Shown: in pieces, positions 418 through 56,098 of the stretch
Layout of the letters: the number at the start of each line of letters is the position of its first letter
Numbering within the stretch: position 1 is the first letter of the stretch
Source: Gammaproteobacteria bacterium 54_18_T64
GTDB taxonomy: Bacteria; Pseudomonadota; Gammaproteobacteria; Pseudomonadales; Porticoccaceae
Assembly: GCA_002162825.1 (NCBI GenBank)
Contig: MAAU01000012.1
Span: forward strand, 1 to 62,929
Reading direction: 5' to 3'
DNA length: 62,929 nt
The notes under the pieces: generated by a model
What the model saw: only the letters and a program-made list of their open reading frames with translations
What the model was told of the DNA's origin: nothing
The model's database searches: none
Made by a program: the position numbers and the translations under genes

Positions 418-573
418 TTTCATTAACGCAATATTTTTATCTGCTATACAGCCTTTATCCGCCTCAAATTTCAATTGGTGGATGAGCGGGGGGTAAGACG
501 TGCCAGCAGGTATTGCTCGGCCACCTCGCAACGTACTAACATTTGTGAAGATTATCGGCAGGGATCGCTGCTG
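418..573 (-). pseudogene. Decayed fragment of a modC 3' end (TOBE region)
   Basis: This stretch aligns base for base, with a few indels, to the last part of the intact modC (5201-5360). The two share the block GGTAAGACGTGCCA and, further on, CATTTGTGA and GGGATCG. On the minus strand it can be read as a peptide resembling the ModC C-terminus: QLKFEADKG...IALMK against LLKIEVGKK...VALMK. The frame is broken between the two halves and there is no ATPase domain. It is therefore a remnant of a duplicated or replaced modC, about 4.8 kb from the intact copy, with the large secreted-protein gene in between. Confidence 0.7.
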
Positions 574-746: not shown

Positions 747-3700
747 ATGAAGGATCGCTGCCGAAATTTTTTGACAATATACTGTCTTTTTATAACAGTT
801 TTTATTTCCTCCATAACACATGCTCTTGATACACACGTCACCCTACAGGCTGACGCGACAATTTCTCCACTTAACAGCGAGCTAATCACCTTCGGTCTGC
901 CTATTGCAAAAGGGCAGGTGTTTGATGTTGGTGAGATTAAAGTCATGCTTGGCACGACTGAGTTGCCCGCCTATGTTGAAGCTGGGTTGATATACCACTG
1001 GTTAGATAACTCTATTCGTTCGATAACAGTACAAATTGATAACATTGATATGCGTGATGGCAATATCAATCTTCGCATTACGAATCAAGGGTCGGATGTG
1101 GAAAGAGTTGTAGAGCGCTCCCACAGTGAGGGTTGGGCATCTGCAGGTGCAGATAAAAATAATTTACCCTTCCCCAGGATATTCGCACTCCATGATAATG
1201 AATATTTGGCACGCTCGGGCCTTACTTCGCCTTACGCAATCGCGACTAGTTCGGAAACTGTCTTTGAAGATTTTCGCTTATCCCAGTTTGATGATTGGGC
1301 AGGAGGGCTTGATTTCAGCAAATCGAGTAAGGCAAATTGGTTGTTTGATCGCGCTACTGCAATGTTCACATCCTATCTGGCAACCGGGCGTGTTGAGTTT
1401 TTAAAAGAAGCCTTTTTATCCAAGCAGTTCTATTTTTCCTATGTGCGCAATGACGGTTCGCCACCTTCCAGTAGTGGTGGTTCAGGTTGCTGGACTTACG
1501 ATACAGTCGCTTGTGCGGATGGTAAGTATATTGCGCCACAGCAAGCCAAATTGGCTTGGGCGCTGTTGGGAGACGACAGTCAATGGGATGAAACATTGAT
1601 CGTCAATATGGCCTTGCAGGCCGACTTGGGTAACTACCAACCCTCGACGCGCGATGAATTTGACAGTGAAAATAAAGCCTTTACCGAGCGCGCAGCGGGA
1701 CTTGTTGGGCTTGCTGAAATCAATGTATTTGAAATGACGGGCAATGCGACTGTTTTGTCCCATTTAATTGAGCGTATCGATGCGCTGAAAGATATGCAGC
1801 AAACCGAAAAGCAATGGGATAGTGATTATGGATGGACGCCCAAAAGTGGTGCCTGGACTCACAACATAGATGTTCATGAAGGTAATGTATCCGCCAGCAG
1901 TGCGCCCACCGGGGAGAGTAATGCCCGTGGTTTTTCACCGTGGATGAGTGAGAATATTGTTGATTTTCTTTGGCAAAGTTATTGGATAACGGGTAACAGC
2001 GATATACCGGATATGTTGCGGAATATGTCCAATGCCCTTGATCTCTATGGTTTTACCTCCTCATACAATGAGGCCTTGGGAGAGTACGACAGGTTGCCTG
2101 AGTACGACCGGGTAAAAGCGCATAGTTGTAACAGTACTAACGAAGACAGCGAATTATTGTATTTTGCCAGTGCCCATGCCGACGCCTCTAAACGGACAGA
2201 CAGTGAGTGGTGGCCCTGGTATACGGATAGCCACAATATACAAAGCGTACTGACGCTGGCGGCGGGTTATTATTTTGAGACCGATGAATTGCGAAGAGCG
2301 CGCCTGCAGTCAAGGATAGAAGTGCTAATTGAAGGTTGGGCCAATGCCAGCTGCGCGACGATATCAGCCACTCCTCGTTTGTGGAATTGGCAGCATCGTT
2401 CGAACTCCGTTAGAACTTGGCACTGGATTGCCGATGAGAATAATTCCGGGGGGATAGCTGAGAATTCACTGCCCATACTGGATATTCCCGATGTGCCTGC
2501 AAGCCCAGATATACCCATGGCCCCTGTTGATCCGGTGGTGGTATTTGTTGCCACAGCAGATTGTAAAGAAGGCAGCGACCCCCATTGGCAATGTGTCGGC
2601 CGTTGGACGACCTACGACAGCGTAGTACCCAATGATTATATCGCGGTGTGCGTCGGTGCTGAGGCAACGGAATATACCCAGTGCATGAACAATGACCAAT
2701 ACATGCTGTTTTCAGATGTTGGCACGCAGGATGGCCTGTTTGTCTGTGTGGACGGCATTACCTTGGGCTTGGGCAGGCTTGGTGGGTGTAATAACGCAGA
2801 CTGGGTATTTACGGAAAATTTAGTAGGGCCGTTGGGCAGTGGCGAAGAAGTGGTCGATATGCCTGAGGTCCCTGTAAACCCAGATATACCGACAGAGCCT
2901 ATTGCTGAGGTCGCGGTATTTATTGCTACAGCAGATTGTAAAGAAGGCAACGACCCCCATTGGCAATGTGTCGGCCGTTGGATGACCTACGACAGCGTAG
3001 CACCCAATGATTATATCGCGGTGTGTGTCGGTGCTGAGGCAACGGAATATACCCAGTGCATGAACAATGACCAATACATGCTGTTTTCAGATGTTGGTAC
3101 GCAGGATGGCCTGTTTGTCTGTGTGGACGGCATTACCTTGGGCTTGGGCAGGCTTGGTGGGTGTAATAATGCCGACTGGGTATTTACTGCGAATTTCGGG
3201 GGCGTGACCAACGGTGGTGACAGCGTGGGTGATGTAGACGATACAGGTGATGCAGGAGATGTAGATGGCGACCCTACTGGTGGTATTTCTTTTTTGAATG
3301 TTACAACTACTGCTATTGATCTTGCCCCCCATGTGCAAAACCATTTTTGGGCGGGACTACCTGATTTAAATGGTGACGGTTGTTTTGATTTGTTTGTAGG
3401 GGCTCATTCCGACGCTTACGATAGTGCAATGTATCTACATGATAATACCAGCGGTACATGTGAGGGCACTTTTACCTACCTCCCCAATTCAGATAATTAC
3501 TCTCAATCATCGCCTCCAATGCCACGCATTACTTCCCGCTACATGTTTGGCAACTGGTATAACCACCCGGAAGGCCTGTGGTCTTATTATGGACACGATG
3601 TGGATGGTAGCCCCGCTGCTCGCTATACCTTGTCGCCGTTGAGTGCTTATGGTGACAAGCCCTTTTATCTTGCCAAGCAAAACGGTTGTTACTACTCACG

Positions 3701-4850
3701 TTCTAGCTGCCTTCCGTTGGATGTTACGGGTGATGGGGATATTGAATTAGTCATCAAAGGTTTTATTCATACATCTCCCCTATCTAGGCAAATTGTCGAT
3801 GCTATTGATGGCCGTGTTGAATACCTAAGCGATGGGGATCGGGAAGGTGATTATGGTTCCAGCTACATGGTTTTTGATGTGAATAACAATGGCTTTCCTG
3901 AAATAATTTCCACCCATTCAGGAGGATATTTTTCTTATTCCGCATTAACAGACTCCTGGTCTTGGGTTACAGACGTGTTTATTAGTCCACTTGATTCCGA
4001 TACGTATTACTCGTCAGGCAACAATCATGGTGTGGCGCTGGATTACGATAATGATGGAGATCTTGATGTTTGGTCTGGGCGGGGTGTTTTCTCCGCCGAT
4101 GGGAAAATGGTATTTACCTTAAGCAGGAATAACGGAGATGGCACATTTACCGATGTTTCCGAAATTGCAGGCCTTGCGTCTCTAGGCATTTCTAATGAAA
4201 GTTATTGGACTACTTACGGAAATTCCGTTGTAGCTGATCTCAATCTTGATGGTTACCCCGACATATTGATTGGCGCAGAGGGATATGCGCAAAATATTAC
4301 AGTATTAATGAATAGGGGTGACGGAACATTCTCTGTCGATCGTACCGTTGATTTTGGTAGGTCTCATGTGGATGACATTGGAAAAGCCTGGTTCAACGTG
4401 GCAGATTATAATAACGATGGTCTAATCGATATTGTAAAGACTCATGATCGAATTGGTGACACTCATGCCTCGATTGGTCTTTTTAAAAATACCACGGCGA
4501 CTGACAACCATTGGTTGCGGGTCAGAGCCCGTGGTTTCGGAGAAAATACCGATGGTCTGCATACACGTATAACACTACTGGCGCCGGGTACTTCAACAAT
4601 TATTGGTCATTATCAAGTTGGTGCTTTTAGCGTAGGTTATCAAAACCTTGTGACTCACGCGGGTACAGGTTCAGCAGCTACGGTAGATCTCCTGATTGAG
4701 TACCCCCATGGAGGGCCGGCGTATATGTTCGAAAATGTTGCCAGCGATCAGGATGTCATCGTTTTTTATGATGGGGGTATTGTTGAAGGCTATATACCGG
4801 GACAGCCTATACCGCTGTCTGCGGATCAGGCCCAGGTAGGCCCTGATTAA
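747..4850 (+). CDS. Very large secreted FG-GAP/ASPIC-UnbV repeat protein
   Basis: The product has 1367 residues and an N-terminal signal peptide ending near residue 26 (SSITHA). Residues about 30-590 form a Trp/Tyr-rich, mostly helical region that looks like an alpha-toroid of the kind seen in polysaccharide-active enzymes; no family was identified. Next come Pro/Asp-rich linkers and two nearly identical 91-residue Cys-rich modules (about 599-689 and 724-814). Residues about 850-1240 hold FG-GAP/VCBS calcium-binding blades, with repeated motifs such as DLNGDG, DVTGDGD, DYDNDGD, DLNLDG and DYNNDG. The C-terminus (about 1245-1340) resembles the ASPIC/UnbV domain of CRTAC1-type proteins. The role is probably extracellular glycan or surface binding. 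Codon usage and low GC, next to a decayed gene fragment, suggest horizontal acquisition. The ATG has an AAAAGGA ribosome site. Confidence 0.8.
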   Translation: MKDRCRNFLTIYCLFITVFISSITHALDTHVTLQADATISPLNSELITFGLPIAKGQVFDVGEIKVMLGTTELPAYVEAGLIYHWLDNSIRSITVQIDNIDMRDGNINLRITNQGSDVERVVERSHSEGWASAGADKNNLPFPRIFALHDNEYLARSGLTSPYAIATSSETVFEDFRLSQFDDWAGGLDFSKSSKANWLFDRATAMFTSYLATGRVEFLKEAFLSKQFYFSYVRNDGSPPSSSGGSGCWTYDTVACADGKYIAPQQAKLAWALLGDDSQWDETLIVNMALQADLGNYQPSTRDEFDSENKAFTERAAGLVGLAEINVFEMTGNATVLSHLIERIDALKDMQQTEKQWDSDYGWTPKSGAWTHNIDVHEGNVSASSAPTGESNARGFSPWMSENIVDFLWQSYWITGNSDIPDMLRNMSNALDLYGFTSSYNEALGEYDRLPEYDRVKAHSCNSTNEDSELLYFASAHADASKRTDSEWWPWYTDSHNIQSVLTLAAGYYFETDELRRARLQSRIEVLIEGWANASCATISATPRLWNWQHRSNSVRTWHWIADENNSGGIAENSLPILDIPDVPASPDIPMAPVDPVVVFVATADCKEGSDPHWQCVGRWTTYDSVVPNDYIAVCVGAEATEYTQCMNNDQYMLFSDVGTQDGLFVCVDGITLGLGRLGGCNNADWVFTENLVGPLGSGEEVVDMPEVPVNPDIPTEPIAEVAVFIATADCKEGNDPHWQCVGRWMTYDSVAPNDYIAVCVGAEATEYTQCMNNDQYMLFSDVGTQDGLFVCVDGITLGLGRLGGCNNADWVFTANFGGVTNGGDSVGDVDDTGDAGDVDGDPTGGISFLNVTTTAIDLAPHVQNHFWAGLPDLNGDGCFDLFVGAHSDAYDSAMYLHDNTSGTCEGTFTYLPNSDNYSQSSPPMPRITSRYMFGNWYNHPEGLWSYYGHDVDGSPAARYTLSPLSAYGDKPFYLAKQNGCYYSRSSCLPLDVTGDGDIELVIKGFIHTSPLSRQIVDAIDGRVEYLSDGDREGDYGSSYMVFDVNNNGFPEIISTHSGGYFSYSALTDSWSWVTDVFISPLDSDTYYSSGNNHGVALDYDNDGDLDVWSGRGVFSADGKMVFTLSRNNGDGTFTDVSEIAGLASLGISNESYWTTYGNSVVADLNLDGYPDILIGAEGYAQNITVLMNRGDGTFSVDRTVDFGRSHVDDIGKAWFNVADYNNDGLIDIVKTHDRIGDTHASIGLFKNTTATDNHWLRVRARGFGENTDGLHTRITLLAPGTSTIIGHYQVGAFSVGYQNLVTHAGTGSAATVDLLIEYPHGGPAYMFENVASDQDVIVFYDGGIVEGYIPGQPIPLSADQAQVGPD
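2541..2812 (+). repeat. Internal module repeat, copy 1
   Basis: First copy of a 272-base coding repeat inside the large secreted-protein gene. It encodes a module with conserved Cys residues (ATADCKEG, WQCVGRW, AVCVGA, TQCMNND, FVCVDG, GGCNNADW). It differs from copy 2 (2916-3187) by about nine bases counted by eye, several of them synonymous. Confidence 0.85.
2916..3187 (+). repeat. Internal module repeat, copy 2
   Basis: Second copy of the repeat, offset by exactly 375 bases (125 codons) from copy 1. The linkers before the two copies (PDIPMAPVDP and PDIPTEPIAE) are related but more diverged than the modules. This points to recent duplication or gene conversion confined to the module. Confidence 0.85.
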
Positions 4851-5197: not shown

Positions 5198-6298
5198 TCA
5201 CTTCATTAGAGCGACACTTTTCACCTGGGCATAGACTTTTTTGCCGACCTCGATTTTCAAGAGGTGGATGGAGCGGCGGGTAAGACGTGCCAAGAGGTGC
5301 TGTCCGCCCACTTCACAGCGCACCAGCATTTGTGAGGGCTCGCGGTCGGGATCGATGCTGACCACTCTTACCGCAAAGCTATTGCTGATGCTGATTTGCT
5401 GGGGTTGAACCAGTGCCAGACTGACATCGCGGGCAGAGATGCGCAGCCGCGCTTTGTGGCCCAGGGGCAAGCCATTGTAGGACACGGAAACCTCGGCGCC
5501 GTCAAAGGCGAGACTACTTAGGTGAAAGGCCTTATCGTGGCCAATGACCGTCGCCTCGAGCACGGCAGCCGCTTCCGCAAAGTGGGCAATACTCAATTGC
5601 GGGTCGGTGAGCAGGGCGTTGAGTTCACCGGCGGCCACGACGCGGCCCTCTTCCAGCAGTACCAGGTAGTCGGCCAGCTGCTGTACCTCCTGGGGGGAGT
5701 GACTGACGTAGAGCACGGGGATGTCCAGTTGTTGCCAGAGACTTTCGAGATAGGGCAGGATTTCCGCTTTGCCGTTGGCATCGAGGCTGGCCAATGGCTC
5801 GTCCATCAATAATAATTCTGGGCTGGTGAGCAGGGCGCGGGCGATGGCAACACGCTGGCGCTGGCCGCCGGATAATTGCTCTGGCCGGTGCTCGAGCAAG
5901 GTCTCGAGGCCGAGCCAGGCGCTGACGTCATCGAAGTGTATTTTGCGTTGTCTCGCGGCAATGCGCCGCCAGCCGTAGAGCATGTTCTCGCGCACATTGA
6001 GATGGGTAAACAGGCTCGCTTCCTGGAATACATAGGCGATGGGACGCCGGTGCACGGCAAGGCTCTTATGGGCATCGTGCCAGCAATGGCCATTGATTTT
6101 GAAGTGGCCGCTGTCGGGTTTTTCCAGCCCGGCAATGCAGCGCAGCAGGGTGGTTTTACCGGAGCCAGAGGGGCCGAACAGTGCGGTGACCCCACGGCCG
6201 GGTGCTGTGAAGCTAATATCCAGCCCAAAGTCTTTACGCTGCAGTGCAAAGCGAGCTTCTATGCGCTGCTCAAGGGGCAGGCTAGTGTCTACCAACAA
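5198..6298 (-). CDS. modC: Molybdate ABC transporter ATP-binding protein ModC
   Basis: This is the cytoplasmic ATPase that powers molybdate import with ModB. Visible motifs are Walker A (GPSGSGKTT, residues 42-50), the ABC signature LSGGQ (142-146), Walker B (LLLMDE, 162-167) followed by an SLD D-loop, and a switch His (VSHSP). The C-terminal third matches the TOBE/MOP-type molybdate-binding region typical of ModC. The length of 366 residues is normal. The start is TTG (6298), five bases after the modB stop, so the two are co-transcribed. A second, decayed copy of the gene's 3' end sits at 418-573. No modA or modE is beside it. Confidence 0.93.
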   Translation of the reverse strand: MLVDTSLPLEQRIEARFALQRKDFGLDISFTAPGRGVTALFGPSGSGKTTLLRCIAGLEKPDSGHFKINGHCWHDAHKSLAVHRRPIAYVFQEASLFTHLNVRENMLYGWRRIAARQRKIHFDDVSAWLGLETLLEHRPEQLSGGQRQRVAIARALLTSPELLLMDEPLASLDANGKAEILPYLESLWQQLDIPVLYVSHSPQEVQQLADYLVLLEEGRVVAAGELNALLTDPQLSIAHFAEAAAVLEATVIGHDKAFHLSSLAFDGAEVSVSYNGLPLGHKARLRISARDVSLALVQPQQISISNSFAVRVVSIDPDREPSQMLVRCEVGGQHLLARLTRRSIHLLKIEVGKKVYAQVKSVALMK

Positions 6299-55190: not shown

Positions 55191-55480
55191 AAGACCTTGG
55201 CGGCGAGCAGGAGAAAAGGCGGGCGATTTTACAGCAGAAGGCCTCGTGCGGCGATGTTTTGCGCTTGCTTATTATCCGCTATAACAAATCTTGGGGCCAA
55301 TAAAGCGATGAGCCCCCTTTACTGGGGGACGTTATTGGGATTGGCAATTAATAGGCCACAAATTGGCTAGCCCTCGCCACTTGTCAGCAAAAAGGACTGC
55401 TCATCAAATTTGCATGGGAACAGAGTCACAGAACGATAATATCCCCGGCCGATGGCAACTCTCCCAATTTGGACGAATAC

Positions 55481-56098
55481 ATGAAGTTATTCCTATCGTT
55501 AGTGCTCACCTGCGTGGCGGGTTTCAGCCAGTCGGCATGCGCCCTGCTTATCGGTAACGATGAGGTCGATGGTCGCAATAGCTTGTACGCCTCAGACTGG
55601 GGTCATGCCTACAAGGGGGGCAGTGATCTTGAATACGATGCGCTGTTGCGCGGTAATCCGGCAAGGGCCTTTGAGGTTGACGATATGGCCTATGGCTTTT
55701 CCTCCGGCGATAAACTGCAGATCAGTGCCAGCGGTTGTGTGGTTGATCTGGGAGAAGAATGTACCAGCCCTGGCTACGATGGCGGCCTTTATCGAGGCCT
55801 GCATGTCTACGGTTTGATTGGTTTATGGAGCACAGATGCGGCATCGATAGCCGCACTGGATCTTAGCCATGGTAATCCTGCTTTTTTTATTGGCAGTTTA
55901 CTTGAGCTCATCGTCCCCGATTTTAGCGCGCCTCTCTATCTCTTTATGGCCAGCAACGACGGTATTTTTGCGGATAATAGCGAGTCTTATTCCGTTCGCA
56001 TCGACAAAATATCGCCAGTGCCGGTGCCACCTGCCATCTTCCTTGTCGTATTGGGGCTGTTGCTGGGTAGAGGTTTTGTCTACAGGCGAGTGTGCTAG
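55481..56098 (+). CDS. Secreted protein with PEP-CTERM-like C-terminal tail
   Basis: This 205-residue product starts MKLFLSLVLTCVAGFSQSACA (signal peptide). The mature part is acidic, with two Cys (SGCVVDLGEECTSPG) and many Asp/Gly/Tyr. The last 26 residues read VPVPPAIFLVVLGLLLG followed by an Arg-containing end. This is the VPxPA-hydrophobic-helix-Arg architecture of exosortase (PEP-CTERM) sorting signals. No exosortase is in the window. The earlier in-frame ATG (55469) lies outside the signal peptide. Confidence 0.7.
   Translation: MKLFLSLVLTCVAGFSQSACALLIGNDEVDGRNSLYASDWGHAYKGGSDLEYDALLRGNPARAFEVDDMAYGFSSGDKLQISASGCVVDLGEECTSPGYDGGLYRGLHVYGLIGLWSTDAASIAALDLSHGNPAFFIGSLLELIVPDFSAPLYLFMASNDGIFADNSESYSVRIDKISPVPVPPAIFLVVLGLLLGRGFVYRRVC

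Follow-up and report, generated by a model that had tools for sequence, protein, structure and literature searches.

A predicted exopolysaccharide-cutting domain joined to duplicated six-cysteine modules and FG-GAP repeats in a secreted protein of a Porticoccaceae bacterium

What is the task of a secreted protein in which two nearly identical cysteine-rich modules lie between a domain without a Pfam match and a series of FG-GAP repeats? The question is raised by an open reading frame (ORF) at positions 747-4850 (+) of a 62,929-nucleotide stretch of Gammaproteobacteria bacterium 54_18_T64 (contig MAAU01000012.1; this whole stretch is referred to here as the window). The frame runs uninterrupted from ATG to stop and encodes 1367 amino acids (aa), and its product has a single match at E ≤ 0.001 in its own genome, a 2.28 Mb draft that is approximately 83% complete. 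Pfam placed only FG-GAP repeats above cut-off on this protein, and NCBIfam placed nothing. An earlier note on this DNA had called it a giant secreted protein; secretion agrees with a signal peptide read by eye, while "giant" is generous for 1367 aa. Based on the homology of its relatives, low-confidence fold matches and gene neighborhoods, we consider it probable that the protein is an exported lyase or hydrolase that is targeted to the matrix and acts on exopolysaccharide.

The region proposed to be catalytic comprises residues 27-563, here referred to as the N-domain. Searched with profiles of this domain, 390 genomes from the order yielded five with a match, 369 from the class two and 378 from the phylum five, the own genome being counted each time, and a scan of a genome contig collection with the full protein as a single sequence returned four stretches and no relatives. 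No ortholog was found at E ≤ 1e-8 in the six other genomes of the genus (drafts 93-97% complete); a distant N-domain relative occurs in one of these six (G003; G and L numbers are our handles for genomes and loci), with 29% identity over 189-601. Alignment A14 contains 13 N-domains, 12 cellular (the window's included) and one from a phage; a fragment in G198 and two weak matches in G1008 (E 1e-8) were excluded. Some of the aligned domains are less than 20% identical to the window copy, and residues P52, R91, W198, L199, D201, R202, D258, K260, T313, E314, R315, E329, S397, W399, M400, H496, R544 and W548 (window protein numbering, A14 position + 26) are invariant in all 13. In the phylogenetic tree, the window protein pairs with the G117 protein, then with the phage protein (100/99 each), then with the G071 protein (81/88) and one of two G1090 proteins (100/100), and the wider N-domain family is cellular and diverse.

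The genes surrounding these relatives point to bacterial slime. Seven of the 12 cellular A14 proteins are encoded in exopolysaccharide loci, three of them with an exosortase gene. The G117 locus encodes a glycosyltransferase (4.3e-32), a flippase-type transporter (7.1e-14) and a deacetylase (4.6e-26). Two divergent N-domain copies are found in G520, together with an Acetyltransf_6 protein (8e-27) and, as read by eye, glycosyltransferases and a deacetylase, and the G1008 locus contains CapK-like, deacetylase, flippase and glycosyltransferase genes (also by eye). The short N-domain proteins of G997, G1074 and G1090 (the protein G1090b) lack a propeller and likewise lie in exopolysaccharide loci, with glycosyltransferases read by eye. 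An exosortase (8TM_EpsH) scored above the subfamily cut-off in all three; its gene adjoins the N-domain gene in G997, where PrsT of the XrtA/PEP-CTERM system is also present, and lies approximately 4.4 kb away in the other two. The XrtA-specific model remained below cut-off in all three cases, and the proteins are called exosortases only. A separate observation concerns a 393-aa gene of G117 (L018:10796-11977, +) that has no Pfam or NCBIfam family. It was found in three of nine genomes queried, G117 included, with a 55% identical counterpart in the G520 exopolysaccharide locus and a 40% identical one on another contig in G081, and is possibly a new exopolysaccharide gene.

The fold of the N-domain was approached through its relatives and through a predicted structure. 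The model PcRGLX_1st (PF19501), from lyases that degrade rhamnogalacturonan, matched four of seven members scanned at E ≤ 1 (not the window's; best 7.1e-9), and one relative (L040:7585-9747) passed it with 34.4 bits against a cut-off of 22.1, its neighbor scoring 21.3. No other PcRGLX model, such as those of the central and C-terminal PcRGLX domains, matched at E ≤ 1 in these seven members, and we do not assign the protein to the PcRGLX-like lyases. A search for literature joining the RIFT barrel with rhamnogalacturonan found none. No NCBIfam family covered the N-domain in eight proteins scanned, five of them at E ≤ 0.001. In the predicted model strands come first and helices follow, and the Foldseek rows shown were mostly toroid carbohydrate enzymes: PL27 BACCELL_00875 (best, E 0.019), GH76, GH127 and AGE epimerases. 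The 50 rows shown by VIA were likewise mostly toroid carbohydrate enzymes, with Z of 9.8-11.2 and root-mean-square deviation (rmsd) of 3.8-6.5 (top Z 11.2: rmsd 5.0, 272 aligned), scores to be read with the program's warning that Z below about 13 may reflect a common arrangement for helical folds. Rows without a carbohydrate-enzyme title included 7tkv and 7xkx in VIA and 9hmf, 7ue2 and 8b6l in Foldseek. Taken together, the N-domain is likely built of a RIFT barrel with a helical toroid behind it. The "enzyme-like helical domain" and "glycan-active" of the earlier note thus gain from relatives, neighborhoods and low-confidence fold matches, and the outcome it had set against itself, an N-terminal match to a well-known enzyme family of identical layout, did not emerge: the window's N-domain has no Pfam match at E ≤ 1, and only divergent relatives reach PcRGLX_1st.

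A further line of evidence comes from a phage. Two N-domain profile scans of viral contigs recovered one locus, on IMGVR_UViG_3300005611_000014 (70,079 bases), which encodes a 1223-aa protein with the order Ig-like domain, FG-GAP part, N-domain, swapped relative to the window protein and without a Cys module. It is 56% identical to the window protein in the N-domain and 34% in the FG-GAP part. On the same strand, the record encodes a terminase (1.4e-88), a virion protein, a tail protein, an endolysin, a portal (9.3e-217) and a tape measure protein (1.9e-102), and the N-domain gene sits within the virion structural cassette, its last base being the first base of the next gene. Of the hints that the N-domain/FG-GAP pair acts on a polymer of the bacterial surface, this context is the strongest. 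The pair is reshuffled in G071 as well as in the phage. Among 50,697 phage records no N-domain was found, and only residues 49-132 of the 1223-aa protein (the Ig-like part) were matched, in two Listeria phages; literature joining FG-GAP with phage depolymerases was sought and none was found. Directly behind the N-domain gene, the phage contig encodes a 1282-aa protein (L041:6611-10459, +) with no match in Pfam, PHROG, NCBIfam or the phage records. By eye it resembles toroids of the heparinase/alginate-lyase type, and the phage may carry two depolymerases.

The Cys modules were then analyzed together with copies from other proteins. Each contains six cysteines, in columns that are invariant across eight aligned copies from six proteins (two from the window protein, one from G117, one from G698, two from G071, one from G198 and one from L024), and is probably held by three disulfides. 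The module is rare: in the class sample, it was present in 2 of 369 genomes, own included. Scanning a collection of 84,980 species with one peptide pattern gave 10 stretches, of which eight were relatives at six loci, with five credible loci aside from the window; L027, a 22-residue match opposite a response-regulator-like gene, was dropped. The same module gave 27 stretches and no relatives in viral contigs. It is joined to the N-domain, to the FG-GAP part in G698 (by eye a lipoprotein, without N-domain), to InlB-type repeats in G071, and to a CEMIP-type beta-helix protein (5.7e-24) that carries it at the C-terminus, from a metagenome-assembled genome named Opitutaceae (5.5 kb contig, binning uncertain). 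Such company of unrelated glycan-active parts suggests binding-module behavior, and it is from company only that we infer a binding role. The module is unclassified in the Pfam, NCBIfam, PDB and literature searched. Its model (pLDDT, the predicted local distance difference test, of 77) matched no solved fold among those searched, which does not show a new fold, and a cytidine deaminase row from PDB (E 0.59) was taken as chance. Separately, a broken relative in G198 (L020:5355-6038, +) combines an N-domain end with what reads by eye as an InlB-type repeat and with a Cys module that is interrupted by an in-frame stop; a transposase-like gene, also read by eye, lies at 2458-3678.

In the window gene, the repeated unit is 375 bases long (linker plus module) and is present twice. 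The earlier note had counted about nine differences between two 272-base modules, and the count is exactly 9 of 272 (2540-2811 versus 2915-3186). With the register kept, differences amount to 17 of 59 positions in the upstream linker and to 10 of 21 in the sequence that follows the module. Pooled, the contrast is 9/272 against 27/80 (Fisher p = 1.6e-12, in a test that treats sites as independent), or 5/91 against 13/26 at third codon positions (upstream linker 8/19, behind the module 5/7; p = 7.7e-7), where both pooled flank counts include the stretch behind the module, possibly not homologous between copies. Between the modules, nonsynonymous (dN) and synonymous (dS) divergence are 0.019 and 0.093 (dN/dS ~0.2). 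Constraint on the protein alone is insufficient for the contrast between module and linker because silent positions differ too. The data support a duplication of the 375-base unit after which the two modules either remained similar or were homogenized; the contrast would be accounted for by module conversion or by a second duplication of part of the unit, in line with the recent duplication or conversion originally proposed. Copy number varies: the nearest relative, the G117 protein, 62% identical overall and with the same layout, has one module and the window protein has two, and in G071 a Cys module stands at both ends of a 1923-aa protein. In the same-genus protein of G003 (L009:8059-11025, -), the N-domain is followed at the C-terminus by two near-identical modules that by eye look binding-like and are of another kind, and add-on module duplication thus appears to have happened more than once.

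The C-terminal half was recognized by PF13517 (FG-GAP_3; 2.5e-15, 57.2 bits, cut-off 26.9) and PF01839 (23.5 bits, cut-off 22.1). The "FG-GAP/ASPIC-UnbV part" of the earlier note holds for FG-GAP, and its ASPIC-UnbV label is weak: UnbV_ASPIC had no match at E ≤ 1 in the window protein and scored 12.7 bits in G117 (E 0.12), below the cut-off of 23.4. A candidate relative in G007 (L003) matched only in the FG-GAP part and was set aside, and a search for literature joining FG-GAP, UnbV, secretion and polysaccharide found none. No described family with this layout was found in the Pfam, NCBIfam, PDB or literature searched; the layout is shared with G117, and is not unique to this gene.

If these parts work as proposed, the protein would be exported via its signal peptide, and catalysis would take place in residues 27-563, the RIFT barrel and then the helical toroid, with lyase or hydrolase activity as the likeliest. 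This chemistry may be carried by some of the invariant residues K260, E314, R315, H496 and R544. The two Cys modules and the Asp-rich FG-GAP propeller would anchor the enzyme on polysaccharide, and the duplicated module would raise avidity. The host might remodel or leave its own matrix in this way, or attack that of a neighbor; the N-domain/FG-GAP pair of the phage could be a depolymerase that opens host slime. A wider picture, which we find plausible but short of probable, is an undescribed exopolysaccharide lyase family (RIFT barrel plus toroid) of gammaproteobacterial slime loci, including some exosortase loci, that moved between cells and phage, there as a tail depolymerase. A few bacteria would have joined it to an FG-GAP propeller and to a new carbohydrate-binding module with six cysteines, and duplication and conversion would now be changing the copy number of this module.

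Several observations weigh against a matrix-directed enzyme. The absence of a Pfam match for the window's own N-domain is one, and PDB searched by sequence gave nothing useful for the whole protein, the N-domain profile or a G520 relative. Confidence in the N-domain model is low (mean pLDDT 45), Foldseek returned no E below 0.001 with it, and the VIA scores fall under that program's warning. For the module, there was no Pfam match, and the best values were E 0.59 with the PDB profile, E 2.3 in Foldseek and Z 2.5 in VIA. The window copy itself has molybdate-transport genes as neighbors (by eye), and no exopolysaccharide locus was visible there or at G003, G071, G081, G1090a and the G198 fragment (12-18 kb read by eye for the relatives, ORFs of at least 200-250 aa). 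On the phage side, a single contig with the N-domain was found in the viral collection, and by eye its protein begins with a signal-peptide-like stretch, which would be unusual in a tail spike; the phage protein is possibly secreted from the infected cell.

Could the protein instead be a matrix adhesin without catalysis, glued to the matrix through its propeller and Cys modules like Bap1/RbmC, with the toroid as a binding relic? The G698 protein, with module and FG-GAP but without N-domain, would suit this, as does the exopolysaccharide-binding, FG-GAP-bearing propeller of Bap1/RbmC (PMC10102183, PMC7841849). We regard it as unlikely, since the five candidate catalytic residues are invariant in all 13 aligned domains, some of which are below 20% identity to the window copy, which points to retained chemistry, and short N-domain proteins without any propeller occur in exopolysaccharide loci. 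Much the same low probability is given to a nutrient-scavenging enzyme acting on a plant or algal, rhamnogalacturonan-like polysaccharide. The PcRGLX_1st similarity of relatives would fit it, and the C-termini of the G003 and G1090a proteins look by eye like binding parts, with no visible exopolysaccharide locus around either gene. However, SusCD or uronate-use genes were not recognized in the window by eye, no family search having been run on those genes, and both the seven cellular members in exopolysaccharide loci and the phage context favor a bacterial surface polymer.

That the cellular gene was captured from a phage, as a tail-type protein which gained its modules later, seems very improbable to us. 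The phage copy does group with the window and G117 proteins, next to which the G071 protein and one from G1090 branch, no ortholog was found at E ≤ 1e-8 in the six other genomes of the genus, and three examined modC flanks hold other genes. But the family as a whole is cellular and diverse, which makes transfer from cell to phage equally likely, and the scans gave only one phage contig in the viral collection and none among the phage records. A secreted exopolysaccharide lyase or hydrolase thus remains the reading we prefer. Its interest is practical as well, given that biofilm removal calls for slime-opening enzymes and the pairing of enzyme with slime locus is mostly unknown. Gene neighborhood here connects exopolysaccharide loci, some of which include an exosortase, with a domain family that has no name in NCBIfam, and a phage with the same domain and FG-GAP among its structural genes makes the match of enzyme and polymer testable from both sides. 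If it does bind, the six-cysteine module would be a new binding module.

The features of the gene and its upstream region are given in Table 1. The contig begins 746 bases upstream of the gene, a stretch with a guanine-plus-cytosine fraction of 0.41 (window mean 0.52), and the 3' end of the gene adjoins modC (5198-6298), beyond which three same-genus genomes have other genes. The 90-base modC scrap on the minus strand, separated by 4.8 kb from its counterpart in the intact gene, is a sign of rearrangement, or of imported DNA with another modC tail. Perfect short tandem duplications also occur upstream, at 158-182 (11 bases x 2.3) and 255-300 (23 bases x 2.0). Elsewhere in the window, at 55469-56098 (+), is a gene for a 209-aa secreted protein whose C-terminus, VPVPPAIFLVVLGLLLGRGFVYRR, resembles an exosortase sorting signal (by eye), and a PEP-CTERM-like protein is encoded near modC in G003 (L059:2135-2974, by eye); this suggests an exosortase system in the window's genus.

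Table 1. Features of the gene and its upstream region, in window coordinates.
Feature	Position	Strand	Basis
Whole gene, 1367-aa secreted multidomain protein	747..4850	+	ORF; one own-genome match at E ≤ 0.001
Signal peptide, residues 1-26	747..824	+	By eye: basic start, hydrophobic core, THA/LDT junction
RIFT-barrel-like beta part of N-domain, approx. residues 27-113	825..1085	+	Strands in low-confidence model; PcRGLX_1st in 4/7 family members, window's excluded
Helical toroid-like part, catalytic candidate, approx. residues 114-563	1086..2435	+	Alignment A14, helices in low-confidence model, fold matches
Cys module copy 1, residues 599-690	2541..2816	+	Repeat and alignment
Cys module copy 2, residues 724-815	2916..3191	+	Repeat and alignment
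Gly/Asp-rich linker	3198..3287	+	Sequence
FG-GAP part, residues 848-1367, with UnbV/ASPIC-like end by eye	3288..4847	+	Pfam FG-GAP_3 2.5e-15 (4 stretches), FG-GAP 5.2e-5
Diverged modC 3' end scrap upstream of gene	484..573	-	76% identical to 5271-5360; frame broken

Secreted polysaccharide-cutting proteins are already known as a kind; what would be new here, within the databases and literature searched, is a catalytic family without an NCBIfam name and an unclassified module. The PcRGLX-type lyases, exo-rhamnogalacturonan lyases of CAZy family PL26, are approached through their N-terminal RIFT barrel model, above cut-off in one relative, and through the order of strands then helices in the low-confidence structure. 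They differ in that the window copy has no match and no other PcRGLX domain appears in seven members, and in the company kept here by the N-domain, namely Cys module, FG-GAP and exopolysaccharide loci. With the toroid enzymes (PL27 BACCELL_00875, GH76, GH127, GH105 and AGE epimerases), which fill most fold-search rows, the likeness would be the helical toroid, at an identity of only ~5-13% and from a low-confidence model. One CEMIP-type beta-helix protein has the same C-terminal Cys module, but its Pfam-recognized part is unrelated to the N-domain. CRTAC1-type FG-GAP/UnbV proteins match the FG-GAP half of the window protein and that half only (as in five plasmid records annotated as "CRTAC1 family protein"), and UnbV is weak here. 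A parallel in outline is from Vibrio cholerae. RbmB cleaves Vibrio polysaccharide (VPS), probably as a lyase (PMC11637428), the propeller of Bap1/RbmC binds the matrix exopolysaccharide (PMC10102183), and these FG-GAP-bearing proteins have a jacalin-like lectin domain beside the propeller (PMC7841849), a domain with no Pfam match at E ≤ 1 in the window protein. We claim neither sequence match nor membership; the outline in common is a lyase for matrix polysaccharide together with propellers that bear FG-GAP repeats, with the roles placed on separate proteins in V. cholerae and on one chain here.

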